The notes beneath the pieces are model-generated. The model saw nothing but the letters and a program-made list of their open reading frames with translations, had not been told where the DNA came from and ran no database searches. The translations under genes were made by a program, and so were the position numbers. Of a stretch of DNA of 64,000 bases, positions 7,971 through 62,760 are shown piece by piece (within the stretch, counting starts at the first letter, position 1; every line of letters starts with the position of its first letter). The DNA lies in the NCBI GenBank assembly GCA_964007475.1, contig OZ023275.1, positions 11,263,829 through 11,327,828 of the forward strand, read 5' to 3'. The stretch comes from Hybos culiciformis. Taxonomy: Eukaryota; Arthropoda; Insecta; Diptera; Hybotidae.

Positions 7971-8984
7971 AATTTCAGTCTACCCAAAGTGGTGTCTATT
8001 AAAATTCAAAAACAAACATTCATTTTGCAACGTCGGCGTTGTCGTTAACAAAAGAAAATTTCATAAGAAAGTTCCACCATTTTTATAAGCGTATTTTCGT
8101 CACTTTATATATAAATGTGGGGAAAAAAGTAAATGCAAAATCCATAAAGCCAATTATGTAAAAAGCCTGTCACTTACAAACATTAATTTTTTTTACAGCA
8201 TTATTGTGCTTACAGTATGGATATCAAAGTCTCTAAACATAATAGCAATTAAAAAAGTTATACACCAAAAATTATGTATATACTGATATGTACATATATG
8301 ATATGTGAGAAGAGAATGTATATAGTCATCGTATGATAAATTACAGGTTTTCTTTACTTTACTAAATTTAATATGTTGAAAAGTTTTCACTATATACGAT
8401 TGAAATAATAAGCGCCGTTGTAAAATCATTTCGAAATATTTTCAAACATTTTGGGAATTCTATTAGAAAGAAATAACGAAAATAAACTACACTAAACAAA
8501 CATTTGAAACAAATCTCTGTTTCTTAAATTATATAGATTTATTCAAATTATATTTACCTAATAATAATGTCTAAAAATCTCCGTTAGATACAGACATGAA
8601 AAATGTAATAAAAAATGTTAAAACGGAATACAAATTAAAATTATTCAACTACATACCTGCCGCTTAAGACGCCGGCGGCGCTTTCTTAGAAAAATATACC
8701 TAATGTGGTTAAAATTCGTATTAAAATTCTATATGATGGACACAATTCTTATTATAACGCTTGACTTTTATTCGCTATAAAATATATAATTGATTTAATT
8801 TTAGCTTGAAGTTTTTATTTAAATATATAATTATAAAAACTAATCAATTATGTATATATGAATTGGTAAAATTTTTCGTTTCAGGGTTCATTAAGTTGAC
8901 TTTATTAGTTAATTCTTCATTTTATTTCAAAAAAAAAACTAAATATAAATAAAATGTAATTAAAATAAATTATATTTTGTTTCC

Positions 8985-9338
8985 TAGACTGTGACTTTTC
9001 GTTTTGTACTTGCAATGCAATTGGAACATACGCAAATCTTTTTCTATAAGGTTCGCTAATAGTCTTACTCTACGTTGCTTGATTGAAAAATCTGGATTTC
9101 TGTTATTAAGAATATTTAACAATTTGCTTGAGAAATGTTCTTTTAATATAACTCTTCATCCGCAGACCAAACACTTTCAGTGGCGTGGACTTAAGAGTGC
9201 AAGTCTAAGTTTCCTATTTTCATAAAATTCATCCTCCAGTAAAACTTCTTCTATCTTACTGTGACAAGATGCATTATGAATTACCTTAACAATAGGTGAA
9301 CCATGTCGAACCATTGCTTTACGAAGACAGGTCTTCAT
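8985..9338 (-). pseudogene. Decayed coding sequence, family not recognised
   Basis: On the minus strand three overlapping frames read like one broken protein. The first, 9338 down to 9177, is a 53-codon open frame containing RHGSPIVKVI, then KIEEVLLEDEFYENRKLRL and ending near LLSPRH. After an apparent frameshift the next frame continues KVFGLRMKSYIKRTFLKQIV. A third frame from about 9122 to 8987 reads NNRNPDFSIKQRRVRLLANL, then IEKDLRMFQ. The composition (E, L, R, C, W-poor) is unlike the K/N/I/F noise elsewhere, and the stretch is less A/T-rich than its flanks. It adjoins the heptad-encoding minisatellite at 9374-9532. The right arm has no counterpart between its matching flanks, so this is probably an inserted retrocopy or transposon fragment. 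I cannot name the protein. Confidence 0.4.
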
Positions 9339-9373
9339 TTACGCTTTTGCATTTAATTGCTTTCATATATTGG

Positions 9374-9532
9374 AATTTACTATTCTCATTATGAAATTTA
9401 CAATTCTCATCTTTAAAATTTACTAATTCCATTTTGAAATTTACTATTCTCTTATTGTTGAAATTCACTATTCTACTTTGAAGTTCACTATTCTCATATT
9501 GGGATTTACAATTCTCATTTTGAAATTAAAAA
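9374..9532. repeat. About 21-bp minisatellite, about 7-8 degenerate copies
   Basis: A unit resembling TTGAAATTTACTATTCTCAT repeats with small changes across the stretch. The period is close to 21 bp, a multiple of three. On the minus strand one frame stays open from 9532 to a stop at 9319-9321, giving degenerate seven-residue repeats of the type NENSKFQ, like a coiled-coil heptad. It lies directly upstream (minus-strand sense) of the decayed coding sequence at 8985-9338 and may have been part of the same protein. Confidence 0.75.
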
Positions 9533-11922
9533 TGTATAGTACAATACAGAAACAAAAATTATATTTTATAAAAACCCTGCATGAATATTCTTAAATCAGC
9601 TTATTCGGCAATTCATAATGCATGAATTTTGCATAGAAATTATTACAAGATAAATTTTCGAGTACCAAGCTGTTTTTCAGTGGAAAACACCAAAGGAACT
9701 GGCTAAACCTGTAAAATGTTCATTATCTGTTTGTCCATCAATTTCACAAAAATATCTAATCAAAGTTAAAAAATAATGATTTTTAGAATTTTTTTTTTTT
9801 AACTTGTCATTGATTCTAAAATTAACAAATGATTCAGTAATAAAATCTTGATAATTTTAATATTTTTATAGTAAATAATTTTTTTTTTGTTATATCCAAG
9901 TTATTCATATATTGAGAATATAACATCTTTTAAGAATAAAATTTCTTAATTATGATTATTTTTACAACTGAATATAATTATTAAAAAAAAAAAAAGAATA
10001 CACAAAAAATGTCTAGTCATAATAAATGATATAACTTTTATGAAAAAGAATATCTTTATATATACATTTTTTTTGATGAGAGATAAGGAAACTCGGAAGA
10101 AATATAAATTTTGTTATGTGTATAAACATTTTTTACCTTAACATCATTTTCATAACTTAAATTCTTGAATGAATATCTTTTTAACACATATAATGGAATG
10201 ATAAAATTATAAAAGAAAAAATTGTATGCACTTGGTATTAAATAACATTTTTCCCGTTTTGTAAATTAATATTAAGAAAGTTTGTGCTTGCAAATTTGAA
10301 GATAAATAAAATAGTATAATAATTATATAAATATAGAAATAGTTCAAATAATTCAAATAATCATTATTTTTACCCTTTTGCATCATGAATTTATAATTAT
10401 TACGATTAATTCCAATTTTCCTTAATTTTAATTTTAAACGATTTTAGTGAAGAAAATTTTTTAACTTTTTGTCAGATATTTATAATTCCAATATTTAGTA
10501 TTTATATGTTTTTTAAATATTTATATGTTAATTAAATATAATAATCATTTTTGATTACTTCAATCATCGTATATATAATTTTTTAAACTTTTATTTTATT
10601 ATTTAAATAGTTAAGTTGATTTGAACTAAATAGCTAAGTTAATCTTAAATTTTAATCTTGATAAAAAATTATATCAAGATTGACAATCATTATGTAGGTA
10701 GGTACTATGTTAATATGTATTCTAAATTAGACATTCATCTCTATAACAACAACTTTGGAACTAATTATTATGTATAAATATTTTTATGCCCAAAATGCAA
10801 AATGCACATTAATTTTCAATAAATTTATTTATTTAACATAAATTTTTAATAGTTAAGTAATTAATAGGAAATTAGACAAAACAAAATACAATAATTCGGA
10901 ATTGATTTCAAAAATATTAAATATTTTTCTTATACATTCCTATCCGATTTGAATGTTTATTTCCATATATTAATAAATATTTTTATTTCCACATTTCCAA
11001 TTAAAATTTTCAATTTTACTTATTGTGTAATTAAATAATGTATTAATTATATAAATATAATTTTTATTTTTTATAATAATGATTATTTCCTTCACTTCAA
11101 TCTATAAATATATAGGAATACGTAATAAATTTATTTTAATTCATTTATACCTTTTCTTTCGATATGATGAATTTTTCTATTTTCAATTATAGCATCGAAA
11201 TTTATTGTATAATTTGTTGAATTATTATTAGATTTTAATGTCTTATTAACTATAGCTATGTGTATAAAAAAATATAAATTATGAAAACAATACCTAAGTT
11301 AATCTTATGATGATATCAGAATTTGAATTTCTAAAAATAAATAAATTTAAAAATTTTTTTATTTTATAAGACGTATATTATCTGACTAAATAAATATAAT
11401 AAACAGAGGAAAACGTTAAATAACTTTAAATAATGTAATTTATACATTTTGTAAATTATGTATGCACCTAAATATAATATGTTACACCATAACTTTGGAT
11501 TTCTGATCACTTAGTAAACATCCTTTTAAATTCCCATTTATCTTGTTGCGACCAATGAGGAACAGTGTTGTTATGCGAGTTATGCTCAAAAAGCTTACTA
11601 TAAGATTATCAGTTTATATCTTCATACATTATCATTGTCTTGCTGCTTTATCGCTCACTCAATTTTCTATAAAAGAGCTTCAAATTTTATAATTCTTTTG
11701 ATATTTATATAACTATCATCTTTCAAGATATCAATTTTTTTTTTAACAATAACAAGGAAACCATAAAATGTTTATCATCATTACTTATATCAGTCACCTA
11801 GTCATTACCATTTTCTTAAAATGGAAATAAATTTTCTTTAGCATATAAAATGTAATTTAATACATAGTTTCCTTAAATATTTTTCATATACTAAACATAT
11901 TTTTTTTTTTTTTCTTTTACAG

Positions 11923-12007: not shown

Positions 12008-15000
12008 GTAAGTTAATATTTTATTTTATTTTTTAAAAATTTTATTTACTTTTTTTTTTTTTTAGAAAAACCACAAATATTTCATTTTCTTCTATATTTC
12101 AATGTTAATTTAATTTCACATTTGGATATTCGATAAAACAATTATGTAATTTGAAAGCATGCAAGATAAATAAAAAAATTATTAACACCTTTATGTATAC
12201 ATGTATTAAATTTTCAAATGAAAATACAATTATTGCTTATTTGTAACAATTTTGATTTAATTAAATTTAATAAACAATCATAAGATAATTTAACTTCAAT
12301 TATAATATAATAATCCTATATCAATTAAGAAGATAATTGGTTTGGCAAAGAAATAACATTAGAGATTATACCTACTTCAATTTAAAATATTCAAAGGAAA
12401 TCAAAATTTACGGTCAGTCTTTCGCATTTTTCCGTCAAAATGTCAACAATTCTTATATTAGACTGAAAACTCAGATCGGTAGTTTTATTTTTTAATATAA
12501 AATTTCACATTCCTTAGCAAGAATTTAAAAGAATTTGAATTAAAATAAGATGTTATGCCTACACTACACTAATGTCTTCGTCTTGAGTGTTTAAAATAAT
12601 AATTTAACTGGAGACTTATATTTTATTTGAATTAAAAGCTAGTAAGAAAATGTAAAAAAAAATAAAAATTTCATTGCTCTTATAGTTCTATTCTACACAA
12701 ATTGTTTTTACTTGTATTATTTTTCCAACAAGCAGCAGTTCATTCCGATAATATACAGAATAAAATAATGTAATTAAAATGTGCAGTGTTATCATCAATA
12801 TAATATGTTTACCTTCATTGTCACTTTAATGACGGTATCACATTCAGCATTACGTATTAAATTAATTTTAACCGCAATAAAAGAGTTTTATCTTGTATGA
12901 CTTCCGTAATTTAGAGCAATATATCCATCTGATTTCAAGATTGTCTGGCAGAATGAAAATGCAATATAAATTCATTTCAGTATTTTTAATGGTGTATAAA
13001 GTTACTTTAACGGACTCATATCAATTTATTTTATTGCAAAAAAAAAATAAAAAAGTTGTATTTATTTAAAACTATCTTAAAAATTGTCTGTAATTAAAAA
13101 ACTGCGCTTTGTTTGTTAGTTTCAAGATTAGATACAGAAACATTCATAATATTGACTTCTTATTATCTTACCAGTCTCATATATTATATCGTAGTTTTAA
13201 ATAGTTTTGATAGAACAATATATGTATGTAAAATGGTTATTTTTGTATCTGTAATATTTACTAATTTAGGAATTCTTTAACATAAAACTATTATTGTGTC
13301 TAGAAGAAGCATCATTTTGTACAATTTTTTATTATTATTCTTTATTTTATATTTATTCTTTTTATTATTTTCTATATATTAATAATAATTTCTAGCTAAT
13401 ACGGGTTACTGATTAATTATTCTGATAACCAAATGTAAAGAAAAATTTATACATAACATCATTAATATGCTAATCGAAGCTAAAGCACAATCTTCAACAA
13501 TCTTGAATTTCTAAACGAAATGTTTTGAAACATACTGAAAATCAAATAGGGAAAAATATCTAAAAAGCTCGTTTTATTCATAACAGCAGCATACTAATAA
13601 TTACAAAGGATGTATGCAAATAATAATAATTATTTATAAGGATTCTTATTCCTTTATTATATATTCGGTATATTCACAAAAACCAAAAACTCTCATGCAA
13701 AGAATAAAATTATTTTTTAATAAATTGTTTTTATGGGATGTTTCAAACGAAAATAAATGTAAATTACTTTTTTTTTATTAAAAAAAATATATATTTAACA
13801 TAGAAAAAAATTTAGTAAATTCCGAAGTTTTTTTTTTTAAATTCAGTTTCATTTGCTTAAAGGCTAATAGTCAAGGTAGTAATAAAATTACGTATATATA
13901 TTTTTATTGAAAAAGATACAAAATCTATATAACATTAATGTATCTACATAAAGAAGTTTTTTTTGGACGCTATAATGTAGTAGTTATTCTTTAGAACGAA
14001 GAATTATTTCCGCATTTAATAAAAAAATATTTTTATTATGATAATATTTTTTTAAAAAAATTGTGCGTATTTGGGAATTAATTAACAATTAATAAGTATA
14101 AATAAAAATAGTATGTGGTAAGTTTTTGCAGCTAGAATATGAAATTCCTAACATCTGAAATAAGTTTTATTATGACCATTGACTGTATTTGAGAACGAAA
14201 TAAAATAATCTCATTTATAAACCTCATAATTCCTACAAAACTTTCGAAAAGATTTTTACACACTTTTTGAACTTTTGAACTTAAGGTTAGTTAACTCAAT
14301 AATAAATTTTTCAAGAACTTCTATGGTTTAAACTTTTTAAAAAATTAGTGAATTAAAAGAAATTTTTTAAATTGATCGACTATCAAAATAGACTTACAAG
14401 ACTTCCAGAAAAAAAATTGTAGAATGTAAAAATAATTTGTTACTGAGGCTGAATCAGTTGTTCACATTTCATGTATAAATGTCGGAAAGGTTTAAAACTT
14501 ATAAAATTGGCTGTCTATCATAAAAGAACCAATAACAACTAATATCTTTTTATTTGATTTGTTAAGAAAAATATTTAAAACTAGTTTTTTATTAAAAAAT
14601 AATCAAAATTAACTTGCTTAACATTATCTATCAATTTGTTTATCGATTTCTTAAGCCTGTCATTATGTGCTGTCAAAATTTATTTGAAATATTATAATAT
14701 TTGTATTTTTTTTTTTGTTTTCACTGTTCTAAATTCCTTGGCAGGAATCTAATCATTGTGTATAGAAAATATATAATTAATATGGTTTTTTTTTACAAAA
14801 TTCCATTTTTAGTGATACAAAATTTATTAACTAACATATAAAGATAGAGTTTACTATAAAAATGCTTATGCTTATAATTTGTTTTTTAATATTTATAAAT
14901 ACAAATAATAAATAATCAATAATAGTCGTACAAGTATTATTGGCATTTTTTTTTCTACCTTTTTATTCAAGGTCTCTTTATAATAAAATTAAAAAACCAA

Positions 15001-16623: not shown

Positions 16624-19600
16624 GCTTATAGCCTTAAATAATTTCACAAGTAAGTCACACCCATGGTGAATGAGTAAAAAATTCTTAATATCACTGTAAA
16701 TAAAATTAATTTAATTTGTGTAGTTTAAAAATCTATCTTAAGTGCATTTGTAAGAGCTTTCTAAAAGAATTTCGAAGCGTTCAAAAATAATATAAACCTA
16801 GTAGAAGAATACAAATAAAATTTCACAGCATGCCAAATAATTTTTTAATTGTGGCATTTTTTATAATTTTTTTTTTAATATGCAAAAACATTATAAGCTA
16901 TTTTTCTTTAAAATATGTACAGATATGTAGTAAATATGATATGAACATTTTTTTTTTTTGAAAAGAAATTCATAGAATTTAATGTGAAACTGAATTACCC
17001 CCTGAAGATATTTGTATATAAACTGTATTTTTTTATGATTATAAGCAAAAAATAGAAAATAAGAATCAATTTTTATGTAAACAGAAACACATTATGAACA
17101 TTATTCTTTTTTCTTTTTTTGTCTGATTTACATATTCAGTCGATATTATTCTTAGGAAAAAAATTGTATATCTTCTTTGGATGTTTCTAAACTTACAAAC
17201 ACGAAATATGAAATAGTGTTTTTTTTTTGCCACTTGCTTTATCTTCAATTTCTAAATATTCAGGAATTTTTTTTTATGTTTCAAGATTACTGACCAATCT
17301 ACAATTTATACATATTGTACAGTTATTGTAGGTTCCATAAATTTACGATATAGTGCGATATAGTGGTTTACATATCCGATTTCAGTATTAAAAAATTTAA
17401 TATATTTCAGAACATTTTTACATTTATCGTTTAAAGTTCCGATATGGTCATGGTCGTGCTTTAGTTAAGTTCCATTAAAAGATATATGATTGAATATCAA
17501 TAGAATAGAAAGTTCTGACGTATCATGTGCCTACCTCATTTGAAGTTTACTCGATCAATTTCATTCTTATTTTACCTATAATAAATTATGCTACAGGTTT
17601 TATTTAAATCAGACGATAATTAAATTGGCACTTCATCTATTCATATAATTAACTAGATACCCTTCCTGATAATTAATTCCTATATTAAAAACTTTGAAAT
17701 ATAACTGCATAAAAATAATAATTTTTTTATGTACGTTCAAAAATATAGAACAGTAAGTACTTCATAAATGAAGTATGTATAGGATTTCGTTTCAGCATTT
17801 CGGTTTAGGATACTTTAATTTTAAGATACCTCCGTCACAATCAGGGGATCAACATACTTCTTTAGAGTCTCTGCAATATCATACCAAAAGAATTTAGTCA
17901 CATATACAAATATAACAATTTTAACCAAAACCAAACCCAAGTCCGAATCTTTGAGCTATGGCCATTTTTTCTACCCATGTGCTTTATTTTAATCAGAATT
18001 CATTTCATATAATAACAAATTTTGAAAAATGTTATATGAAAATTATTTAGACCGTTGGTTTGTTGACAGCCTCGATGTCCGAAACCTGAATAGATAGAAT
18101 CTTTAAAAGGATGAAAACCGCTTGGCTGGTTTGGCTGACGGACGGACAGACATTTAATGAAAACATAAAGACCGTTTTTTTTTTTAATTTTTAATGGAAA
18201 AGGGCATAAAAACTAAAATGAAAATTATAAATTGATGAATGAATACGGCAAATTAAATACCTATTAATTTCTGAAAATATACGTAAAAAAAACTATTTGC
18301 TGTCATTTCGCACTCAATCCCCAAAGTTTTTTCTATAAGAAATTTGCTTAATTTTTTCATAAGAAAAAAAAAATTGTTTACTTCCAAAATAAAAAAAGTA
18401 ATTTTTTGCTCTTTGTTTATTTTTTAATCAACTTTTTATAAAAAGAAAATTAAAAAAAAAAAAATTAATAAACAATTTTTTTTTCATTAAGATAACTTTT
18501 ATTAAAGAAATTTTCCTGTAATAAAAATTAATAAAAAAAAACTAATTTTCTTTTTTCTTTTTAGATAGTCTGACTTTTTTTTTATACGGTTAAAAAAAAT
18601 AAACAACTTAAAAGACAGCAATGTCATTAAGACAATTTTGTTTATAATAAATACATTTTTTTTCCAATGTTGTTTTTGAACTTTGTAAATATTACTATGT
18701 ACAATTATACACACATGCATTTATACAATGTGGAAAATAATGGACAATTAAGGCACCATGCGATAATGCCTGCCTTATCTAGAGTTAACATAATGTCCAT
18801 CAAAAAAACAACATAATGTCTGTATATACAAAACCAAACGAAATAAGACCTAAGGGATGGCTAAGGGATTTGCTTCCGACTCTTACAATTATACCTCTAT
18901 TATAGGGCACAGAATATCCTGAGCTTTTACATAACAATTTATTATACAAATGTCATGTAAACTACGGATATATAATATCATTATCATATTATTTACTTAA
19001 CTGTTCCATATAATCTATAATAACAATAATTGATGAAAATAAGACAAATGGAGGTATTAAAATTCTCAATTTCTAGAATATTATAATATTAAAAATAAAA
19101 TATAAAATAGATCTTAAAATTAATTTCATATACTATTGAAATGAGCTTAAATTAAAAAATTATCGGTTTTTTTAATTTTTTTAATTAACGTTTAATGATA
19201 GCCCATAATAGTAATTATATACACTTACAAAAGTTTGTCTTAAAAAAATATGATGTAATTAAAAATTTATTATTGTTTTAAAATTCTTAATATTTTTTTT
19301 CATTATAACTAATTTCATTATTTATTTATGAAAAAAAAGTGTTAAGTAATTATTATGTTGAAAAAAATTTAAGAAATATATATTTAGGGTAATCACTATT
19401 AATTTAATAGCTGATGGTACGTTCATATTTATTTAAGTGATATTGGTGTCATTTAGATTTTAATATAGCGATAAAATGTTCAATCTCGATATTTTCGTGT
19501 CTGACAATAATTACAACCAATTATATTCCTATTTTATAATCTTATATAAAATTTCAATTTTAAATACAAACCCAAATAATTTAAGTTCTCCCTATTATTA

Positions 19601-20225: not shown

Positions 20226-22810
20226 ACACACATATGTCTGTGCATAAATTATGAAAAATAACCATGCATAAGCAAATATAAATTTAAATTACCTAAGTAT
20301 AAACAAACATTTAAAGATTTATAATTAAATAATTAAAATATAAATATGTTTGACAACGAAAAAGATTTCATTAGTTGTTTTACTATAAAATTTTGATGTT
20401 GAATGTTAACAAAATTTTATCTTTTAGAAAACTGATTATATGTAAATAGAAAATTATTCCATCATAAATAATATTTGAAAATAATAAATTATTGGTATTT
20501 TTTTTGTTACTGCAGAAATTTCCTGCACTACTGTTTAGTTCACATTCATACTATATGTTTAATATATAGTTTTCATGGATGTGTACTAAGAATTCCTAAA
20601 TATTTATGTAAATCTCAAAAACTACTACGAATCATTTGGCATTAACTTTGAAAAAAATATATGAGAAGAATTTTACAACGCAATGCGGCTGTACAATTCA
20701 AAGTTTTTGTAAAGATTTATTGATTGTGAATACATTTTCCTAGATATTTGAATGAATAAACATTTAATTTAATGGAATTAATAAGTGGAATCCGTACTAA
20801 AAAAGTTTTTCGTATTATCAGATTAAGGTGTTAATAACTAATCAATTATGTAATTTTCGGAAAATTATAAAGTTAATTTAATTACGTACGCTATTTTCGT
20901 TAATTTAACTAAATAATACACGTATGTTATGTTCTATGAAATTTTCTTGGAATAAAATATATTTTTAAGTATATTTCTAAATTATAATTTTTTTTTTAAT
21001 TTGAACAAAAACAAATTTCCATTGCTGATAATTTTTAATTTCATATATTTCTTGGAATTAATTTAGGTAATAATAATTAATACCTACAAGCATAAAATTT
21101 TCATTTATTTAAAAAATAATTATAAACAAAAAAAAATATTTTTTTCTATCTAAAAATGCAAAATAATTTAAATGATTTTAACTTTTGTTTATTTATTTTT
21201 AATTCAAATTATCATAGCAAAATAAATCGAATTTAATAATTCTCTATAAATGATGTATCGATAGTACTACATAATATATACATATTATATACCTAGGTAC
21301 ATATATTTTGAATAAATCGATAAAATTTTCCATATAAAATAATTTTTTTCTAGCTCATCATGTTTTCAATACATATATGTACATAACTATTTCTATTAAT
21401 GTACATATGTACATAACACATAGTGTATATAACTATATACAGCGAAAACATTTTTTTTTGTTTCCTTAAAATATTTGTCAATCGTTATTAAAGAAAACGA
21501 TGACTATATGAGTTTTTCTTAAGTTGAGTGCATTCATGAATATCTGTTGATATCAGATGCATTATGCAAAATAATGTTTACTTTTTATTATTCTCTTTGA
21601 TTTATGCAACACGAATTCATGTAAATTAAATTTTAACTTAAACATGAGAAATTTTATGTTGTATATCTCATAGTTAGTTGCTTCTTCCATTAATGTCTTT
21701 CTCTATAGATTTTCACTTATTTGACTTATTTGTCTGGTGCTCGTTAGATATACCATATGGAAAACCACTTAAATGATAAAATAAGTTTGCAGGTAAATTT
21801 TTAAATTTACATATTACTATTTAATCTGTTAGCTTAAAATCACCCAGAAACAGTAAATAACAACAACAAGGCCGTTCGAACAAAAATTCAAACTTAGAAC
21901 ATGTTAATTTTTGACATTTAACCCTAAAAACTCAAAAAAATTTTATTATAAACTTTTTGGCTTAGACATAAAAATTGTAAACTAATTATTACTGCGCTAG
22001 TGATAATAACTAATAATACAAGTTTTTTTCAGAATGTACATTTCATAGACTTTTAAAAAAATAATGTAATTCAAACTATTTAATTGCCTTGGGAGAATAA
22101 AAAGTACAAAAGGTAAATAAACCTTAAAGAAGTTTAACGAACATTATTGAAAGTCAATTAGTGTTATAGAACAAATCATAGATAAAAATAAATTGAAAAA
22201 AAAATATATTTTTTTAATGATTATTTATTTGGGCTACTTTTATCTATTATAGGTATGAAAGCATAATATAGTGAGTGGATTTTTTTGTTTATTTAGAAAT
22301 TTTGTTGTGAAGAAAACAAAATAACCATGAGAATATATCAGTTATACGTATATGTATATTATTAGTTTCAACCTGAGTCATATCATGCAGAGAAGTTACA
22401 TTAAAAAAAAAAATGTTTTAATGTAATTACATGCATATAAGCATAGGGAATAATGTTTTTAATTATGAAAACATATTAAAGTGTATGTATATAAATAATA
22501 ATGTTAGTTATTTAAAAAAAAAAAAATAACTACGTAATTATATAAAGTCGAGAGCCTTGCAAATTATGGATGGTATATAAAAATATGTTTTTATAATTAA
22601 ATCTATTGTATCACTAAAATTACTTTTATTCTTTTGTAATGCCATTGCAAAATCGAACTGAAATAATTAGACTTGTATTTGAAGAGTTGAGGATTTTGCA
22701 TTCAGCCATAGATATTTAAAACTCAAAATTTTGGTTTTGATTTAGAAAAGCAATTTGATCTTATTTATGAATTTATTTGTGCTCATTTATATTAATAGAA
22801 TTTTGTCTCT

Positions 22811-30650: not shown

Positions 30651-30660
30651 TATCTACAAC

Positions 30661-36940: not shown

Positions 36941-36944
36941 TTAA

Positions 36945-38660: not shown

Positions 38661-38668
38661 CATTCGTC

Positions 38669-41315: not shown

Positions 41316-41339
41316 TATTTTCCTATTATAATTAGAATC

Positions 41340-48542: not shown

Positions 48543-48642
48543 GAGTTATTAAAATTTATATAGAGTTATTAAACTTTATGTAGATTGGACTCTGCATACT
48601 TATCTCTACTGACACGTACTTCTGCATACATATCTCTACTGA
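48543..48642. repeat. Two adjacent short tandem duplications
   Basis: A 20-bp unit starting GAGTTATTAAA occurs twice at about 48543-48582. A 30-bp unit containing TCTGCATAC, then TATCTCTACTGA, occurs at 48591-48612 and again at 48621-48642. These are local slippage-type duplications and create short open frames on both strands that are not genes. Confidence 0.75.
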
Positions 48643-51600
48643 ACAAATGTAGGTATATGAACTTATTTCCACAACAGAAATTTTCAAGAAAAACAACACG
48701 GTTCAATAAAATTAAAATCAATTCAAAAACGATTTTCTCTCGAATTTTGAATCGTACAGGCTTTCTGTGAAGCTTTAAATTATTATCATAATTCAATTGC
48801 AATATCAAAATTTTCTATTTTCAGTCAAGTTTAAAAAGCGAAATAACAATGAATAACTTTAATTTAATGTATACTTAAAATCACTTAAAATTTAATACCT
48901 ACTTAATATTACATAATTTTTATTTTCGTATATTAAATGTATTCTACTATTCTCTGTATAATGAACGACATATTTTATCACGTCGACAGGAAGAGTCAAA
49001 AGAATATCATATTTAAATGAAATGAGTTTTTACGGAAATTAAATTTCTTTATTAGCATTGCATGTTTTGAACACAAGTTAAGTAGAATTCAAATTATTAT
49101 CTTCTTTATTTATTTTTTTTATTTCTAAGTACTATTTGCATAATTTTTTTCCAAGCAGCAATATTAACCAACTTAATGTTATGAAATAACTCTTCAGGTT
49201 ATTAATATTGCCAAGACATCATATCTAAAAAAATATTTTTACGAAATATAATTAAAAGAAAGAAATCTCTTCGACGCTATTTTTTTAATTATAAGTGTGT
49301 TATCAATAGTGTTATTTATTATCCTTTGATATTGTAATTAAAGAGTTTAAATATAAACATCTAATCCTTAGATTTGAAAATGTAGAAACAAAAAAAATGT
49401 TTATATTTATCAGAAAGAAATTAAATTTCTCGATATTAAATTTATGTCTAGAATTGCAAGTCCACACATGTATAACTTTGTGCTTAAAATATATTTTTGT
49501 ATAGGTATAAAAAAAATTTACGAAAAAATGTTTCTTATTACACAATAATTCTGAAATAATGTTTTCCTCTAAACAAAATTTGTATTATATACCTTTGATA
49601 TTAAATATCTATAGGTGGAACGTGGACCTCTATAACTCCTTAATAGAAATCTTTTAAGCTCTCTTAATATAGATATTAGAAATATATATATATATAAACG
49701 TATATGTATATTTTTTTAATTATTTGCAAAGTTCTGTAATTTGTCACATGAAATTATCTTTAAAGTCATCTATTTAATTTAATAAAAAAAAAGTTTTTTT
49801 TAACTAATCTCTTACAAAAACCAAATTTTTTTTGTGCTTTCGGAGTTGGGATAAGATAAATTGGTCATGTGATGTGGAAACTTCTAATGAATACCTAGTG
49901 TACATTAAAAATTAATTTTCTTGATTTTTTATATATTATTTAAAATTTATATATAGTTTTGTGGTAAGTCCTATATTATTAGTTAAATAAAAAAAAAAGT
50001 TTAAAAAGGTTGATATTTAAAAATAGAATAAAAAATTATCTCATTCTCTTAAATAAAATAAGATAAGTTTTTTATCTGATAAATTTAATTAAAATCGAAT
50101 AATTAATTTTAAAATTAAATAATTTGAATATCGGTTTTTTTATTTTGACACATCAGTTCAATTTAATTAAAATTGGAATTTAAACATAATTTGTCAGTTA
50201 CTTAGTTTGATTAAAATCGATGACTTAAGTAGTAAAAAATGTGTTTGAATATTTATGTACATATGTAATAAAGTTTAAAGATAAATTAAAAATTTTATTT
50301 CCTTTGCTTACTTTAACTAAAACATTATTTTTTAATGCATCGTGATAATGATATAACGCAGTTTGGAACTATATAAATACTGTATGTAAGTAATATATTT
50401 TCAGAGTTATCTTTTCCTTTTTTTTTCAAAAAAAAATTTCTAAACAAACAAAAAATCTATTACATTTTTCTTGCTAACATATATATAATAGATAGAAGTA
50501 GCCCAAATAAATAATCCAGCGAAGCCCAAATTAGAACTAATTTAGAGCATATAGAAAATACTAAGGTTTTTTTCATATCACACCAACCCAATTTTTATTT
50601 AAAAAACATTCACTGTAAAAAAATTATTTCTAAAGACAATATTAAGAAAACTAAATTGTGTGTTGTATGTTTTTTGAATAAAATTACGTTTTATTAATCA
50701 GTTTTAATTCAATCCTAAAATAATAATTGGTTTGGTTATTTCTTTTAATTTTTAATTTTTTTTATTGATTTAATTTTAATTTTAAATAATTAGAAGATTT
50801 AGCAAACGCAATTTAATTTCAAAAATGCTTCTTAAGCATATATATTACGATTCACATCAGCTGACAAATTTTTTTTAAAAGCTTTCCTTTTCCATTTAAA
50901 ACAAAAGATTTTTCTGTCAGTTTTTTGTTTTACTTAATACAGAAATTTGTATAAGCCAGAAAGGGATAGAGATATAAAATTAAGGAGAAATGATTGAAGA
51001 AAAAAGCTTGATTTAAAAATTTATTAAAATTTGGCCCTTTCATAAAAACTCAACGGTCAATTGATTTAAATCGTACTCTAACAATATTTTATATAAAAAG
51101 TGATTCCTTCGGGATTTAAAAAAATTAAAATAAAATTGTTTAAAAGACCCTCCAGTCTAAAAGAGTAAGAAATATAAAGTTTATATTTTTAACAGTGTAT
51201 TTAAAAAAACTAGAAATAAAAAGAAAAAAATTTTTTTTTTTTTTTTGTGAATCAAAGTGAGCATACGAAATAATGAAATGAGTATACGATTTTATATGCG
51301 AGTATACGATTTTTTTTTTTTCATTGAAAATGATTACACATTTTTTTATTCCTATGCATTTGAGTATAAAAAAAAAAAATTTTGCTCGCGAGCATAGGCT
51401 TGGGCATCAGTGAAATAATCATTGAAAAAAAAATTTAAATTTATTTTTATCTATGATTTGTTCTTTAACACTAATTGACTTCCAATAATGATGTTTGAAC
51501 TTCTTTAAGGTTCATTTACCTTTAAGTACTTCTTTTTATTCTCCGGAGGCAATTAAATGTTTTGTAATTGTATTTAACTCTTTTAAATCAGTAATTATTA

Positions 51601-53021
51601 CACAATTTTCACTCCAATTCGATGATGATTTACAGGAAACTTTCGAGTTCTTTAATTGTTAAATGTCAAACATTAAAATATTTTTTTTTTTAATTTTTGT
51701 TTTCTTTGTATAAAATTTCTCATGTTTGAGTCAAAATTGAATTTACATAAATTCGTGTTGCATAAATCAAAGAGAATAACAAGAGGTGAACATAATTTTG
51801 CATATTAAGGCATATCCATATGAATGTACGTAAGTTGAAAGCTCATATAGTTGTTTTCTTTAATACAACAATTGACAAATATTTCAAGGAAGCAAAAAAC
51901 TTTTGCTATCAATATGCAACTATATAAAGTAAACTAAATAATATGTAAACTATAAAAATGTTTATTTATAATAATTTATATTTATAATACATATTACATA
52001 ATTATGTATAGTATAGTATAGTTATATAGTACATCATGTGTACAACACACAGAAATATATTTATAATTTCCCAATTTGCAAATGCACGACAGATTTATAA
52101 AAATTCCTAAATCCTACTTTTTTTCTACGATAGTTGAAACAAAAAACGTAAAAATCATTTAAATTATATTTTACATTTTTTGTAAAAAAAAATTTTTTTT
52201 AATTCTTTTTATAAATAAGTTATAAAAGGAATATTTTATGCTTATATTATCATTAATTTAATTTTAGGAAATTATTTAATGTCGTGGAAGAAGAGTAAAA
52301 AATAAAACTGAAAAGCATCACTAATATACTTTTTGTATTTGTGGAACAAATCCATGTTGATAAATAAATAAGAAAGAAAAAATTATTTGGTAATGGTTAA
52401 AAAATGAATTATTGCAAACAAAAGTGCACGTTACACTACAAACTTATGGTATACGTTTGTTCGAAATAGTAAGATATTAATTTTTACGACATGAAATAAG
52501 TACACCAAAAATTAAAAATAATTATTATTATTTAGATAGTGCTTTATAAATAAATTAATTAGTTAACGTGCTAGAACTAATCTGCAATTGAAATTTAATA
52601 GTAAAGGTTTACTAATACGTTTTATACTAGGTCTCCTAGTACACTAATGTAATTTAAATATTCTATACTTATTTATATTCTCTTTTCAATATGCTTTTAT
52701 AAACATTTTTTTTTTAAATATATAATATAATAAAAATGCAATCTTGTTTATAATATAAACTAAAACTTTGAATTGTTCAGTTTCATTTGTCGTCAATGCA
52801 CGATCAGGTGTTATATAGATGAAAAGATCAGGCTACTACATAAACTTACACTTTAAGAAATATTTTAACGTGATTTAAAGAGTTTTCTTTTTTTTAAAGA
52901 ACCAATAATGATGTTTATTCCAAAATTTATATACATATATTTTTTCTAATTTAATCTCAAAAGCTAAATATTTATTAATAGTAGATTATTCTATATGTAA
53001 ACTAAATTTGTTATTAATTAA

Positions 53022-53143
53022 GAGTTCTGTATACAGAAAAATACATTGACACGAGTCAATACTTATATCACGAGACCGAAGGTCGAGTGATATAAATTGA
53101 CAAGTGAGTGTCAATGTATTTTTGTGTAAATACAGAACGAGTT
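53022..53143. repeat. Two-tier hairpin element, about 120 bp
   Basis: Outer arms TTCTGTAT...AAAAATACATTGACAC (53025-53052) pair with GTGTCAATGTATTTTTGTGT and following bases (53108-53137). Inner arms GTCAATACTTATATCACGAG pair with CGAGTGATATAAATTGAC around GACC-GAA-GGTC, with the axis near 53079-53081. The whole unit could fold almost completely. No right-sized partner is seen in the left arm, so it looks like a small foldback MITE inserted after the duplication. The family is unknown. Confidence 0.8.
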
Positions 53144-53323
53144 GTAAAACAAATTTTGTTTACATATCCAATATACTGTTCTATTGCGTAGGGGAGAGGT
53201 AGTTGCAAAGAGAGAATATTTTTTCTTCTCATTTTTTCTCAATTTTTTTTTGTATTTGGCTGTATTGAAATATTGTGAGAGATATTATGTTTGTTTACGT
53301 ATTACGTAATATTCAATACGAAA

Positions 53324-53435
53324 CATCTAAATGATTTCATTATTTACGCTGATGCATCTAAATTTTTTCATTATATACGCTGATGCATCTAAATATTTTT
53401 CATTATTTACGCAGATGCATCTAAATGATTGCATG
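53324..53435. repeat. Minisatellite, about 32-35 bp unit, about 3.5 copies
   Basis: The unit CATCTAAAT, a T-rich stretch, CATTATTTACGCTGATG repeats from 53324. Four CATCTAAA starts are visible and spacing varies by a few bases. It lies only in the right arm. Confidence 0.85.
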
Positions 53436-56400
53436 TGTATTGACGCATATAATACTTCTTTTAGTGATCTAAATTCTATAGCACTAAATACAACATAACG
53501 ATCCCCAACGCATTAAAATTTGTTAACATCGTGATTTTTGAATGCAAATCTATTTCTTTGTCAAGAATTTAAATTTTAATTATTCAAATATAAATTATTG
53601 ATTGTTTGTTTATGCTTACTTTAAATTAATATTTCTGTATAGTTAAGCTTATTTCAATATTATATTTATTCATAAACACACCTAATGCGTGCAAAATCAT
53701 TAAATAAGTAAATATAAAACAAAATCCAATAAATTTTGAAATAGAAGATTAAATAAAAAAAATCACACTCATATATACTTTAAAAAAAATTCAATTATAA
53801 TACTAAGTTCATAAATTGTGAATTATAAAAAGAAATTAAATTATTTGCACGAAATTGAATATTGGAAGTTCATAAAATTTTGTACAGATAATCGAAATTC
53901 AAAAACTTTAAATTCTACCAGATTAGTAATCGACTGTCGTACACCCGATATTATCCAAACTAAACACTCAATTTATAACTATGTTGTTAAAATTAAAATT
54001 GCATTTCAATAATTGAACATTTTGTTGTTTTATTTAAAAAAAAAAAAAAATATTAAAAAAAGTTGACATCATATCAATATCAGTTAAATATGACCATCAT
54101 CGGTAATTTAATTAATAGTGATTTATTATGGTTTTAAATTTGTTTTGTTTTTGTCAGCATAAAAACATATAAAAGCAAGTCGAAAAAAAAATATTAGCAA
54201 TTTTAAACTAATAATAAATTGTTAATTACATTATTTGTTTATAAGAAAACTTTTGTAAGTGTAGATAATTACTTATTATCGGGCTATCATTATTCACTAA
54301 TTAAAAAAAAATATTTAAATAACTAATAATTTTTTAAAGTAAGCATAAAATTAAATTTTTTTATTTCAAAATAATTCTAATATTAAAAATTGACGACTTT
54401 TTATTTCATCTATTAAATTTTAATTTTTGTTTCCTGTATAAAGTCTGAAGTTCAATTTTCAGTTTCAAAGTATCAATTTCAAAGTATCGATTTGGAACGA
54501 AACTATGCAAAAAAGTAGATTTTTTTCAAAAAAATGATTATTCGTAGTTTTTACATAAAAAAAATGCAGTGAATCTTCTTGATGTTAAATAAACTTTTCT
54601 ATCTTGAAAAAAATTTAAAACAAAAAGTTTATTAAAAATAAACAGAAATTGTCTTAAATGACATTGCAGCAATGTTATGAGCTTATTTTCTTTAACCGTA
54701 CCTAACAAAAATAAATCAAAAGAAAATGACAGAAATTAAAAAAAAATGTATAAACTATCTTTAAAAAAAATTTGTCTTAATGAAACTAAAAAATGTTTAT
54801 TAATTTCTTTTTTTCCATAACGTTGATTAAAAAAAATAACCAAAGAGAAACAAAGTTATTAACTTTTTTTTGTTGGTTTGGAAGTAAACAATTTTTTTTC
54901 GCATGACTAATAAAAAGTCTTTGAAGATTTAGTACGAATATGAAACAGAAAATATTGTTAGTTTAGTTTTAAAAATAAATTTTTTTCAGAAATTAATATT
55001 AATATTCAATGTACGGTATTACGTTTCATTCGTCGATATAATATATTTTTATTTATATACATATAAATTACCTACATTTAAAATTTTTACGTTTTTTAAT
55101 AGACATACATATATCAATTAATTTAAAGGCAAACGTGGGGTCTTCAGATTTTTTAAATAAATGAAGTGTTATATAATTATAGCAAAACTGTCATCACTTT
55201 TGATTGTTTGAATTTTTATAATGATAATATATTACAATGTAATAGAAGTTAGCAGGAAAAAAAGCATTGAATTAAATTGAATAAAATTATCTTTAACGAA
55301 AATTTTAGAGTAATTAGTATTGAGTTATGAGATCTAATGAAGAAAGGCCGCGCAGTGATCTTGATTCTTGAAATATCAAAAATTATTCACTTATAAACTC
55401 AGCATAAGTACAACAAAAATATTATAATTTCATTTATTTTATTTCGTTTTTCTAAGTACAGAAAATATTCAAAGAAATTATTCTAGACTAAAGAATAATA
55501 TCGACAGAATATGCAAATCAGACACAAAAAAATTAAGTAGGTATAATGTGTTTACATAAAATTTGATTCCAATTTTTTCTATTTTTTGCTTATAATCATA
55601 AAAAAAAATAGTTTATTTACAAATATCTTCAGGGGGTAATTCAGTTTCTCATTAAATTCTATGAATTTGTAGTTAAAAATAAGAAATTGAAATTATTGTA
55701 CACATATTTTTTGAATATAGATATTTATATATTTTAAAGAAAAACAGCTTATAGTTTTTGCATAATATTAAATTTTTTTATAAAATAAATGCCACAATTA
55801 AAAATTATTTGGCATGCTGTGAACTTTTATTTGTATTTTTTTTGTGCCGTATTATTTTTGAACACTTCGAAATTCTTTTAAGTATATAGAAAGCTCATAG
55901 AAATGCACTTAACATAAATTTTTAAATAATTCCAATTTATATATTTATTTTCATATTATTTGAAATGATATTAAGAATTTTTTGCTCATTCATAATGGGT
56001 GTGAATTACTTGTAAATTTTTTTTGGGCCGCAAACTCTCTCTACTTAGCTTTAAATAATTAATTAATTTGAAACGAAAATAATTATTTAAATATTAAATA
56101 AATATGCGAACTTTCACCAACTTTTTTTTAGCATACATACTAGTCTAAAGTTATTTAATTTATATTTACATAAATTCAGTCATTACAAAATATCAGTCAG
56201 GATTTAATTCATTGAAATTGAAAAAAAAAATGTGTTCTCAGACTGGGTGTATTAAATATGTCACCTCACGCACAGAAAAGTATATAATATCGTTTAAATT
56301 TATTAAATATTAAACATTTTAAAATTAAAGAAAATTTAATAAAAAAAATTTTCATAAAAATAATTTATATTCTGGTCATATAATATCGTTTTTTATTAAA

Positions 56401-56821
56401 AAAAAAACTGAAAATTAAAAATAAAGTCCACTTTATTATGGCATCGTTGTAGTTTATGATAACTTTTTTATATTAAATATGTTTTTGTTTGGTTTGGTTT
56501 TTTTTATTTTATTTTAACAGACCTTGAATAAAAAAGTAGAAAAATAGCCAATAATACTTGTACGATTATAATTATTGATTATTTATTATTATTTTATAAT
56601 TTATCTTTAATATAAATAAAAACATATTGCTGCATAAGTATTTTCATAGTAAACTGACTATATCTTGAATATTCTGTAGAAATGTAAGTTTCTAAAATAA
56701 AAAAAATCGATATTAACTATGTAATCTGTAATGTATAGATAAACAAAAATTACATCCCTGGTTAAGGAATTGAAACTAGAGAAAATACAAATCATATTTC
56801 AAAAAAAATATTGAATGTTTA

Positions 56822-57171
56822 ATGATAGATTTCAGTATATTGTTTGTATCAATTGATAATGTTAAATGCCAAACACGTAATGCTTTAACGTCACACCCAT
56901 ATTTCGTTAAAATTCCCAGATGTGATAGAACGAGCTTTGGAGATTCGTTTTCAATTCGCACCTCAAGAATGTGGAATGCTCTCCCTTCAAAATTGTTCCC
57001 TACAGCTGGCGGATGTTTGATTTACGACTTGCGCCGCTTTAAGAAGAGTGTAAATGATTACCTACCGACTGTCCCACTTTTTAATCCCGTTTATTAAATA
57101 CATACTTCTTTAAGTATAAAAGGTATCCCACCTAGTGATTTGGTAACTTTAATAAAAAAAAAAAAAAAAAA
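56822..57171 (+). mobile_element. 5'-truncated LINE 3' end (reverse transcriptase ORF C-terminus) with poly(A)
   Basis: A 91-codon frame (56822-57097) carries the C-terminal signature of non-LTR retrotransposon ORF2 proteins: TRNA near residues 18-21, RTSFGDSFSIRTSRMWNALP at 36-55, and LRRFKKSVNDYL at 70-81. A stop, about 55 bp of 3' UTR and an 18-base A run (57154-57171) follow. The polymerase domain is absent, so this is a dead, 5'-truncated copy. The pattern fits jockey/CR1/RTE-like lineages, but the clade is not fixed. The left arm has no equivalent between its matching flanks. Confidence 0.82.
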
Positions 57172-58534
57172 TAATAAAATTTTAATTTTTTATAGAAGTC
57201 ACAGTAAAAACATTTTGTTTATTTAATTTTTTTAATCCTATGCATTCTCTTTTGTGGTACTTATCTGTATTCTAAATTTGATCCAGTTCCATCCAAGTTC
57301 AAAATTCTTGTAAAATTTATTATCGAGTTAAAATTGGATGAGTTTTGACAGTCACAGGCACTAAAATTAATATTCCTTCTATTTCTATTTGATTGTTAGT
57401 TCTTAATTAATGCTCAAATTCGTTCAAGTTTTTAAAAGATTATTAATGAATTTAAAATTTTAATAAATTTTTTTTTTATTTTATACGGAAATTACAAGTT
57501 TTTGTCTGCAAAATAATATATCTAGTTTCAGAAAAATTTTCTGAATATTTTACTGAGGTATTTTTTGTTGTTCAATAACAAATTATTTTTTTTATTACCA
57601 TCTTGATTATAAGCCAATGAACTGAATTCTTCAAAAAAAAAAAAAGTTTCAAAATTTTGTACCGAATATAAGGTAATATAAATGCATTATATATGTGGAA
57701 ACCAATAACAATATTATAATATTGTTCTATGCAAACTTTGATTTAATTTTATGCAGTGAGAAACACTGAATTTTATGATTTTATTTTTGCATTAAAATAA
57801 ACTGTCTGCGTCCGTTGATGTGCATTTACTGACCATCAAAAATTCTAAATGGTTTCATGGCGGATTGACCAGACAGTCTTGAAATCATATGGATATATTG
57901 CTCTAAATTACGGAAGTCATATAAAATAAAAATCTTCTATTGCGGTTAAATTTATTTTATTTCAAAAACGTAGTGATAAATGTGATACCTTCATTAAAAT
58001 GGCAATAAAGGTATATACATAACATTGCACATTTTTAATTATATTTTAGTTTATATCTGATCTACTGCTTGTTGAAGAAATAAAAAAAGTGTAAAATAAG
58101 ATTATATTTTATAGAATAGGAGAACTTTAAAACCAAGATATGTAGAAAATGTTTGAATTCTTTCTGCATAGAGATGACCTTTTTGTAAGTAGCTTTTGAG
58201 GTAAAATTTCCTGTTAAAGAAAATTAAGAACATTTATTCTAAACAACGAGCTTCTCAATGTGAACAAAGAAATTGTTAGCTGAATATTTGCAAGATTAGA
58301 TATAGACAAACTAGAAAATTAAAATGGAACAAACAAGCAATTGAATCTTCATTTGAAACTAATATAGGAATTAATAAAGGTGTGTATAATTGATATTTAT
58401 TTATCTTGCAAGCTTCTAACTTACATAATAGTTTTATTGAATATCAAAATGAAAATCAAATTAACATTGAAATGTAGAAGAAAATGAAATATTTGTGGTT
58501 TTACTATAAAAAAAAATAAATATTATTTACTTAC

Positions 58535-58611
58535 CAAAAAAATATTTTATTACATAATTTTCAGAGCAGATGCCCGTTTCAGTGTAGTAGATTCTTTTTT
58601 ATGTTTAAAAT
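58535..58611 (-). pseudogene. Relic exon 1, right-arm copy
   Basis: Minus-strand partner of 11923-12007. It has a CTTTAACAG acceptor above 58611 and a GTAAGT donor below 58535. The 77-bp interior gives one frame open from the acceptor, FKHKKESTTLKRASALKIM and a stop, without the extra stop of the left copy. Confidence 0.4.
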
Positions 58612-59341
58612 CTGTTAAAGAAAAAAAATAAATAAAAATTAAGGAAACTATTAAATTACTAAAAGAAAATTTCAATATCGAAAAATTTCAAGTCATGGTA
58701 ATGACTATGTGACTGTTATAATTTATATAATAATGATAAACACTTTTTATGGCTTCCTTGTAATTGTTAAAAATTAAATTAATATGTTGAAAGTTGATAT
58801 TTAATATTTATAGAATTACAACGTTTGAAACTATTTTTTCTTTAAACAAGGTATTAACACTTGAAAAGCCTTATTTATAAGTATAATAACATATATTAAA
58901 GTTTTAAAAAAATTTTAAGGTGAGGAGGTAATCTAGCCCAAAAGACAAAGATTTTTTTTTTTTGTATTATCTGATAAAGATACTTTGCAATTTGCATGAA
59001 GAAGACTTAATTGGATCTATGTAGGCATTATATACCTCGCACAACGTCTGTCGAAGTCGACTACATGAGTTGATATAAACTATTCATTACTTTTGAGACA
59101 TTCTAGGGAACTAAACGATCAGAAATACAAAGTTGTTTGCAATGTTATATTTACATATATGATTTAAAAATACACAATATCATAATTTGTTCCTTAGTAT
59201 ATTTTATTTATAGAGAATTATTTTTACCTAGAATAACCTTATAAATTAATTTATTTTTAGATATTCACGCAGTCTTATATCATTAAGGTTATTGTTTTCA
59301 TAATTTGCAATACAACCTTATTTATGTTAGTTAACCTATAC

Positions 59342-59553
59342 CATAGATTAAGAATACAGAAAGATGGGAAGCTTCATACAACATTATTTTTGGTATTTTT
59401 AAGTCAATGTTACTAACACATAAAATACGTGATAATTATCAATGTATGAAAAGAATTCTATTTAGTTTTACTAACACCTTCACAATAAAATACCAAAAAA
59501 GACTGAAAAAATGTTGTATGAAACTTCCCATCTTTCTGTATTCTTAATCTATG
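59342..59553. mobile_element. 212-bp MITE with 30-bp perfect TIRs
   Basis: The ends are CATAGATTAAGAATACAGAA, then AGATGGGAAG, as a perfect inverted pair. Similarity continues through TTCATACAACAT with one change. CCTATAC directly flanks both ends (59335-59341 and 59554-59560), a 7-bp target duplication, or 8 bp if the border is moved by one. There is no coding capacity. The left arm at about 11245-11270 has the flanks without the element. Confidence 0.87.
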
Positions 59554-61379
59554 CCTATACCTAGCTAGTTAATATATAAAACATTAAAATCTAATAAAAA
59601 TTCTCTAATTATTACAATTGAAATAAAATTACCGATGCTATAATCGAAAATAGAAAGAAAAGGAATTATAACCAGTTCTTAAATATTTATTTCTATAATT
59701 ATAGATTGAAATGAAGCAAATAATCATAATAAAAAAAAAACTTTATTTTATGTAATTAAATCAATTTTAATTACGTAATAAGAACTATTTATAATTTTAA
59801 TTAGGAATGTGGAAATTAAATAAAATATTAAAATATAGGCCATAAATTGGGAATTATTGGTATTCTTGTTTGGTAAATAGAAGGTAAGTATGATTTCCAA
59901 TAATAATTGCTTGCTTTATTAATTAGCGTTAAATAAAGAAATATATATATAGGTATAGGTATTCTGAATTATCGTCCATCATATTTTCATTTCTATAAAA
60001 TAGTTAGTTTTAAAATTGTTTTACAGAGAAAAATTGTCTACAAGAAGATATTAACTAACTTAAAATGACTGAAGGGAAAATGAACACTATAACTTCTGTT
60101 GTTCATTTTTTGTTACATGTAAAGTATACTTGTTCGTCTCTTGTCATTCAAAGGTTTTATTATAAACAATAAAACTTTTCCAACAAAAATATAATATTAA
60201 AATCAATATAAGTTGTTTGAAGTGTTATTAGTATTTTAATAGTTTTAACTTTGATTGAATTGATGCTAATTTAAATATACGCAGCTTGGGTAAATAAAAC
60301 TTAAATTGAAAATCAAAGAAAATTATAGCTTAATAATATTGCCTTATCAAAATATTTGTTCTTTATTAAGTGTAAAATAATTATTATAAGTACTATTGTA
60401 TTTGTCTTTAAATTTGCAACCGCACAGACTTTAATATTAACTAAAAAAAAAAAATTTACTACCAACTAAATAACAATTTTTTTTTTGTACAAAATTTTAT
60501 CATTCCGTACTATGTGTTAAAGAGATTTTTTCATTCAAGAATTTAAGTTATGAAAAAAATGTTAAGGTAAATAATTTTTATATGTACATACTATGCAACA
60601 TTTAGGTTTCTTCCGAGATTCTTTATCTTTTATAAAAAAAAATTATATATAGCTATATTTTTTTTCATAAAAGTTATATCATTTATTATGACTAGACATT
60701 TTTTGTGTATTTTTTTTTTTATTAAGTATATTCAGTTGTAAAAATAATCATAATTAAGAAATTTTATTCTTAAAAGATGTTAGATTCTCAAGTTTAAAAA
60801 AAAACTTTGAGATAACAATAAAATTTTATATAAAAATATTAAAATTACAAACATTTTATTACTGAATCATTTGTTAATTTAAGAATCAATGACTAGTTAA
60901 AAAATATTTCTAAAAATCACTTATTAAGTTTGATTAAATATTTTTGTAAGATAAAGTGATATTGATGGAGAAAAAAATTAACATTCTAGAAATGAGCACT
61001 GATGAAATATTTGTCCAGGGTTATCTCCTTCGTTTTTTTTTTTTTTTTCTGTTATCAAATTTTGTTAAATTTTAGAACCAATAAGAAACGCAGTTTGTTA
61101 TTTTGAAATTTATATTGTCCATGAATCCTGACTTATTTTGCAATGTGAAATTTTTGTAAAAATCTTAATTAACAGCAGATTGATTCAAGAATATTTTCAA
61201 TATTCATGCTGAGTTTTTATACTTTTATAACAAAAGAACTATTAACTACACTGATATGTAAGAATTATTCACGTATTTAAATTTTAATTATTCAAAAAAT
61301 AGTTTAATTGTATGTAAATCAAAGTTTGGAAATAATTTATTTAGTTTATTGATAGCAATATTATGGAAAAGAACCTTAA

Positions 61380-61557
61380 GAGCCCTCACTGCGAAAAATT
61401 CGTCTTAGTTTTGCTTTGATTGTATGATTAATACAATCTTGTGTGGCTTCAGGGTAGGTGAGCCGAATTTTTTTAATTTATAGTTTCTTAGCTCACATAG
61501 CCTTCTAAAAACTTTAATCAAAAAAATTTCACCCTTCAGGGCTGGTGGTGTGGAATT
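61380..61557. mobile_element. Partial second copy of the TTAA-flanked element
   Basis: It starts GAGCCCTCACTGCGAAAAAT after TTAA (61376-61379) and follows the element at 36398 in the same orientation. It includes CTTCAGGGTAGGTGAGCCG and CTTCAGGGCTGGTGGTGTG modules, with shorter internal sequence. The right end is not seen, so it is truncated or deleted. It is absent from the left arm. Confidence 0.75.
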
Positions 61558-61908
61558 ATACAAAAATAAGTTGAACCTTTATATTAAAATCATTACCGAA
61601 TATATTTATTGTAGTTCAGACGTTCAGAGACCTAAACCTAATTTATTTTAATCACATTTTATTTAAATAAAGTTGTATTTAAATTTAGTTATCTTTAGAT
61701 TAAAGATTATTGAAAATAAACTTAAGAATAATTAGAATAAGCCGAAAGGAAAAATGTTATCCAAATCATATAAATAATTGATTAATTTTCATGATTATTA
61801 TAAACACTTCAAGCTAAAATTAATTCATTAATAAAACAATTACGTACATATAATTTTTATATAGACTACATAGAGAGAATTTAAAGCAAACGTTATTGTA
61901 AGAAAATT

Positions 61909-61924
61909 GAAGGAAGGAAGGAAG
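61909..61924. repeat. (GAAG)4 microsatellite
   Basis: Four tandem GAAG units in an otherwise A/T-rich stretch of the right arm. Confidence 0.9.
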
Positions 61925-62760
61925 CAAATGACGTATTCAGATGTTGGAAAAATTTAAATTCTGTTTAAAAAGTTTCAAATACGGGAAGGTGCTTGTTTGG
62001 AAATCAAATTATTTTAGTTTTAATTTCATCTAATAATATTTTTCCTTGAAAGAAGGTGAAAACTAGAAATTTTGGCTTCTGTATCACTAAGGCTTTAACA
62101 TGTTTTAAAAATAGTTTTAAGTTCAACTAATTCTTAACGTCTTAAATATTTGACAAGTTTGGCTTATAGCTTGGACTATTTTCGAAATCAGAGAATATAT
62201 AATCAGCATTATAATAGGTGCCCAAAAATGTCTTTTTAAATATGTATAATAGTATAATATTCAATATAAGGATATTCTGACGACTTCATTAATTTTATTT
62301 CAATTGTACATACGAAGTCAAAAACCTTTCAACAATGTCATCATATTAAATTTCAAAGCAAAGAATACCTGTAATTTATCAAAGAATGTATACATTCTCT
62401 GTATTACATGATAATAATATCATACATCATTTATGGTACATAGCTTTTTTAATTGTTATTATGTTTAAAGACTTTGAAATTTGTACTATGTATAATAATG
62501 TATTTATAATAACGTTGTAAAAATCTTGATATAAAAAATAAAATAAAATGAATGCAAGTGACAGGCTTTTACATAATTGGTTTTATGGATTTTGCTTTTA
62601 CTTTTTTTTTTCTCCGTATTTTTTTGTATTAAAACAAGTATAGATAAAACACGTTTATAAAATTGTTGACATTTCCCGATGAGATATTCTTGTTTGTCAG
62701 ACGACACGAAGAGATGTTGAAAAATAAATGTTTGTTTATTAAAGTTCGAAGACTGACATT

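Follow-up and report, generated by a model that had tools for sequence, protein, structure and literature searches.

Background

Gene-poor expanses of the Drosophila genome carry one cluster of conserved blocks per ~1.1 kb, and 19 of 19 consecutive clusters that were tested proved to be enhancers (PMC3632565). Arrays of conserved non-coding DNA are considered to regulate developmental targets across intervening bystander genes that do not respond (PMC5728398). In this paper, we describe a locus of the fly Hybos culiciformis (Diptera, Hybotidae), in which a gene-poor region is present as two long inverted arms that resemble each other island by island. The DNA analysed is a stretch of 64,000 nucleotides, termed the window, which corresponds to C3:11,263,829-11,327,828 of the 342-Mb assembly. 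Positions without a sequence name are counted along the window, and negative ones as well as those above 64,000 fall outside it.

The locus shares with genomic regulatory blocks (PMC5728398) a dense, mostly non-coding array over tens to hundreds of kb, conserved here as judged between the arms only, together with a gene-poor stretch and apparent bystanders. It differs in consisting of two inverted copies in one genome. By analogy, it most likely works like a duplicated genomic regulatory block, but membership of this class is not established, because conservation is known between the two arms alone and the target gene was not found. The Drosophila clusters (PMC3632565) are similar in their density, their gene-poor setting and the variable lengths of the spacers between them, whereas they were defined between species and the islands described here between arms of one genome, known from sequence alone. 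Duplicated conserved non-coding elements of vertebrates (PMC1896008) were likewise kept beside both copies after duplication; those go back to a fish-specific duplication, ours to a single local inverted duplication in an insect. Inverted segmental duplications at Drosophila inversion breakpoints (PMC4965816) suggest a possible origin of inverted duplicates that flank a segment, the likeness being one of arrangement.

Extent of the inverted duplication

Alignment of the window with itself yielded collinear matches on the reverse strand and no direct-strand matches at E ≤ 1e-10. Under more sensitive settings, the chain pairs 7,994-33,602 with 44,246-62,753. With low complexity masked and E ≤ 10, the chain score was 4065, compared to 1178 for the direct strand, 1000 for a reverse-only and 963 for a complement-only control. 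When low complexity was left unmasked, 509 chance matches were found on the direct strand at E ≤ 1e-3 (best 109 bits), and 155-260 across five shuffles (best 62-81 bits). Because chance matches are abundant in unmasked AT-rich DNA, lone weak blocks carry little meaning, and we relied on chains and their controls instead. The collinear reverse-strand diagonal described in the first-pass annotation of the window is thus borne out, as is the 95% identity of a block quoted there (26611-26730 versus 48049-48168). A genome search with the block 26611-26730 led to exactly two places (two of two candidates). Exact patterns derived from three island cores gave no match in collections of viral (two patterns) and prokaryote (one pattern) contigs.

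Flanks of 130 kb on the left and 160 kb on the right were then added from the same genome (290 kb in all, giving a stretch of 354 kb). In this sequence, 122 collinear inverted blocks were found at E ≤ 1e-4, which span -118,893 to 33,115 in the left arm and 44,749 to 210,682 in the right arm; one outlying short block lies further out (-127,855 on the left, 212,474 on the right). The arms are therefore at least 152 and at least 166 kb long, or 161 and 168 kb if the outlying block is counted. At the same cut-off, a right side that was only reversed or only complemented gave one match each. The direct strand of the extended stretch showed 136 matches, yet its chain comprised just 21 blocks. Only 20 of the 122 blocks lie wholly inside the window; 35 have their left member there, 15 of which pair to the right of the window, and partner blocks are separated by up to ~330 kb. 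Arms of about 25.5 and 18.4 kb with outer edges, as first annotated, have to be given up: these edges were the limit of the window, and the chain continues as far as approximately -119 and +211 kb. For 212.5-224 kb on the right, the fetched left flank offers no counterpart except for an out-of-order match of 20 bases.

The inner part of the left arm occupies positions 1-33602 (plus strand), and its reverse complement, the inner part of the right arm, 44246-64000 (minus strand). The spacer between them (33603-44245) becomes 33116-44748 when the E ≤ 1e-4 chain blocks alone are counted. The annotated spacer length of 11 kb is hence better given as 10.6-11.6 kb, varying with inclusion of the weak innermost block.

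Conserved islands in diverged DNA

Identity within the blocks amounts to 82.6% (19,598 ungapped columns) and ranges from 68 to 98% among those of the window. To describe the DNA between them, segments of 200-2500 bases were used that contained no N and whose lengths agreed within a factor of 1.5, which left 43 of 121. Their identity was 56.0%, as opposed to 50.0% in a reversed control, and the real value exceeded the control in 37 of the 43 segments. Seven between-block segments inside the window reached 48-66% (controls 47-52%), the highest value coming from a pair of very unequal lengths. Between the islands, divergence approaches saturation. Since this DNA is nearly random, the duplication is presumably old, and the islands stand out from their surroundings.

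Successive spacings between islands are rank-correlated between the arms (Spearman 0.85, n = 121), and the islands occur at a density of about one per 1.3 kb (122 in 152-161 kb). Within the blocks, identical runs of at least 20 bases are more frequent than in any of 200 shuffles (137, shuffle mean 95.6). The same is true for runs of at least 30 bases, of which there are 43 (shuffle mean 26.6, maximum 37 in 200 shuffles). Self-coverage was determined for an earlier chain of 99 blocks. Its median was 2 or less on both sides in 94 blocks; the remaining five consist of one repeat and four chemoreceptor pieces.

A coding test was applied to these 99 blocks. Among them, only chemoreceptor blocks look coding, and one of these alone combines a long open frame with gaps in multiples of three and a third-position excess (169 stop-free codons; 5 of 5 gaps; 62 of 146). 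Over all blocks tested, 69 of 332 gap lengths were divisible by three. The test is weak for short blocks, in which stop codons are often absent by chance. When short frames of the two arms were compared in all six frames, the only long protein common to both among the matches listed was that of the chemoreceptors, and an Rfam scan of the window and its flanks detected no family at gathering score. The first-pass statement that the arms contain almost no coding sequence consequently holds within the window as far as tested; it does not hold outside, where both arms carry chemoreceptor genes.

A duplication of probably regulatory DNA

The region is duplicated in inverted orientation, and its conservation is island-wise. 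Islands that stay alike while the intervening DNA has drifted are what one would predict if functional gene switches persist in both copies. Due to a density like that of the Drosophila enhancer clusters (PMC3632565) and to the model for non-coding arrays (PMC5728398), we interpret the arms as a single regulatory domain that is present twice. The locus is thus likely to be an ancient inverted duplication, around one GT92 gene, of a gene-poor region rich in enhancers, with both copies under purifying selection. Regulatory function, selection on both copies, age and target gene are parts of this picture that we infer from the sequence. It would have started with one inverted duplication event, for example through staggered breaks at an inversion, and arm-specific insertions and losses would have followed. 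The islands are probably cis-regulatory elements that act on at least one developmental gene, located beyond the fetched stretch or unrecognised within it. Purifying selection would keep both copies, which would either serve one copy of the target each or share a single target. Tentatively, and with less confidence, we consider a more far-reaching version: a complete developmental regulatory domain, including its target gene, may have been duplicated head to head long ago in a fly lineage, with more than 100 enhancers kept in order in both copies.

Several observations weigh against the regulatory interpretation. In nine of the 121 spacings, the distance is above 4 kb in one arm, and for several of these it differs several-fold between the arms. 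Identical runs of at least 40 bases fall within the range of the shuffles (14, mean 9.9, maximum 16). Conservation was measured between two arms of one genome only and not between species, and the coding test did not extend to the 23 blocks farthest out in the final chain. The main gap is the target of the putative regulatory islands. In the window's own genome, the homeobox search gave 103 matches (150 of 161 candidates scored), the nearest of which lie at C3:8.45 and 13.22 Mb, the closest of all 1.9 Mb off. Nuclear receptors gave 30 matches (35 of 35 candidates scored), with the nearest at C3:10.01 Mb, 1.2 Mb off. All seven TIR matches are located on C1 and C2 and none near C3:11.3 Mb, and both FGF matches are on C1, with the reservation that divergent FGFs might escape this search. 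A tblastn search of the 354 kb with 16 domain sequences returned weak, chance-like matches (best E 0.41). These negative results span the homeobox, nuclear-receptor, TIR and FGF families; for zf-C2H2, 150 of 2611 candidates were scored, and bHLH, HMG and T-box genes are outside their scope.

Individual candidates for the target were rejected on the same grounds: pyramus/thisbe because FGF matches occur on C1 only, Toll-7/18-wheeler because TIR matches occur on C1 and C2 only, and knirps because the nearest nuclear receptor is 1.2 Mb away. As a by-product of the homeobox search, clustered homeodomain matches were seen at C1:19.85-20.73 Mb, probably the Hox complex.

Alternative explanations

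Four other explanations were weighed, which are given in falling order of probability. Inverted repeats can undergo gene conversion, and the identity of the arms is patchy, so that conversion might have kept them alike in patches without any constraint on the islands. Recent conversion tracts should be ~100% identical and have sharp edges, however, while the blocks in the window range from 68 to 98%. In the printed alignments, long perfect stretches are interrupted by small length changes in A or T runs, and the block edges are gradual. Moreover, the partners are up to ~330 kb apart. We therefore regard gene conversion as improbable.

An assembly artefact, in which alternative haplotypes or gametologous chromosomes were joined head to head, is the case that the first-pass annotation had raised against its own proposal. 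There is a run of 200 N in each arm, at -61,810 and 86,455, and the outer parts of the arms thus rest on scaffolding. The 148 kb from -61,610 to 86,454, on the other hand, are free of any N run, and arms that hardly align between the islands (56.0%, control 50.0%) do not look like haplotypes. Their gene content differs, too: in 304 kb, GT92 is found once, in the spacer, and Lachesin once, in the right arm, and a Ty3-like element is present on the right only. A misjoin is accordingly unlikely.

The first-pass annotation had proposed a segmental inverted duplication, perhaps in a region of low recombination or on a sex chromosome. The collinear chain upholds the inverted duplication. Recent segmental duplications are by definition at least 90% identical, and such high identity along the copies was not found (82.6% in blocks, 56.0% between them), which speaks against this part of the proposal. 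A sex-linked palindrome or a low-recombination duplication, retained for sex-chromosome reasons, would fit a large inverted duplication with a short spacer. Sex-chromosome palindromes are known for near-identical arms that are kept so by gene conversion. Arms that are 83% identical in blocks and near random in between are not of this kind, and we consider the explanation very unlikely. None of our observations speaks for low recombination or for sex linkage of the region.

Hardly credible, finally, is the idea that a large mobile element, or a segment of the polydnavirus type, entered the locus twice, in opposite orientations. The collinearity of the two copies and their low coding content would agree with it, but the block tested has no further copies beyond its two genomic places (two of two candidates), none of the ten window frames searched in Pfam is a transposition gene, and the arms exceed 150 kb with no end found. 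The earlier judgement that a transposon copied twice is unlikely is supported.

Islands and genes of the locus

The old, inverted regulatory duplication that we favour is represented in the window by the following islands. Near its left end, three strong islands (85, 91 and 84%) at 444-1283 (plus strand) have their partners beyond the window at 70379-71349 (minus strand), and two (83 and 93%) at 5724-6163 (plus) pair with 65246-65650 (minus), likewise outside. The remaining pairs, each with its left member on the plus and its right member on the minus strand, have both members in the window: 9712-10301 with 60406-60988 (80%), 12064-12244 with 58329-58505 (82%), 16636-17215 with 55435-56022 (74.6%), 22068-22194 with 51438-51569 (87%), 23590-23987 with 49571-49967 (77.6%) and 25543-25906 with 48764-49106 (77%). 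A pair of two blocks (78 and 87%) at 26484-26938 and 47828-48279 contains the block 26611-26730 mentioned above. It is followed by the pair 31400-31626 with 45534-45779 (81%) and by the innermost strong pair, 33056-33115 with 44749-44809, which is 98% identical.

A GT92 glycosyltransferase gene that looks intact is distributed over three frames of the spacer (38929-41172, plus strand; matched stretches 39064-39528, 39769-40182 and 40408-41127). Among the best 120 of 750 matches, its closest named relatives are from Condylostylus longicornis (83%) and Drosophila kikkawai (82%), and an unnamed partial record reaches 85%. The fly relatives of the Lachesin gene are mostly 70-81% identical (best 120 of 782). 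Taken together, the two genes mark the organism as a fly, probably a brachyceran. Chemoreceptor genes are present in both arms outside the window, with two similar copies plus fragments on the left and two on the right, which are ~45% identical across the arms. The left protein matches Pfam 7tm_7 (E 1.6e-8); the right one has no Pfam match at E ≤ 0.01. No homologue of the left-arm chemoreceptor was found at E ≤ 0.001 among 3495 candidates, and it is thus of no use for dating the duplication. We regard GT92, Lachesin and the chemoreceptors as probable bystanders. A gene with Methyltransf_FA matches is located close to the outer end on the left, with one frame just above and one just below the cut-off. 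The open frames L027 and L023 of the left flank (about -127.9 to -119.2 kb) recur ~7.2 kb apart on either side of this gene, a local tandem duplication.

Repeats and mobile elements

A palindrome at 30265-30656 is ~90% self-complementary and has a higher G+C content than its surroundings. Close pieces of it (up to 99%) are found at -38 kb, and weaker ones at -119, -126, 111 and 118 kb; on account of these further sites, it is probably a foldback-type mobile element. The repeat 52964-53524 recurs at -48.7 kb with 95.7% identity and, in weaker form, in both arms; it represents an insertion far younger than the arms. Part of the open frame 56780-57097 recurs at -62 and -74 kb. By a motif, it resembles the end of a non-LTR (long terminal repeat) reverse transcriptase; Pfam gave just a weak, unrelated match below the cut-off. 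A piece of the spacer, 35230-35670, has a 93% copy in the same orientation at 156.2 kb. The frames L022 and L025 (about 162.5-168 kb), found in the right arm only, resemble by eye the polyprotein of a Ty3-type retroelement.

Implications

In the open literature that was searched, we found no description of such a case in insects; accounts in different wording could escape this search. If our interpretation is true, a single genome shows which regulatory elements were kept after the duplication of a whole gene desert, without any alignment of species, as well as the weight of order and spacing and the reach of constraint. As a natural experiment, the locus could also show whether regulatory DNA and its mirror image fold into a single contact domain or into two, and whether the two copies serve one target gene or two. 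Should the whole domain have been duplicated together with its target, the arms would be a within-genome record of enhancer survival and of how control is shared or divided when a domain faces its mirror image.

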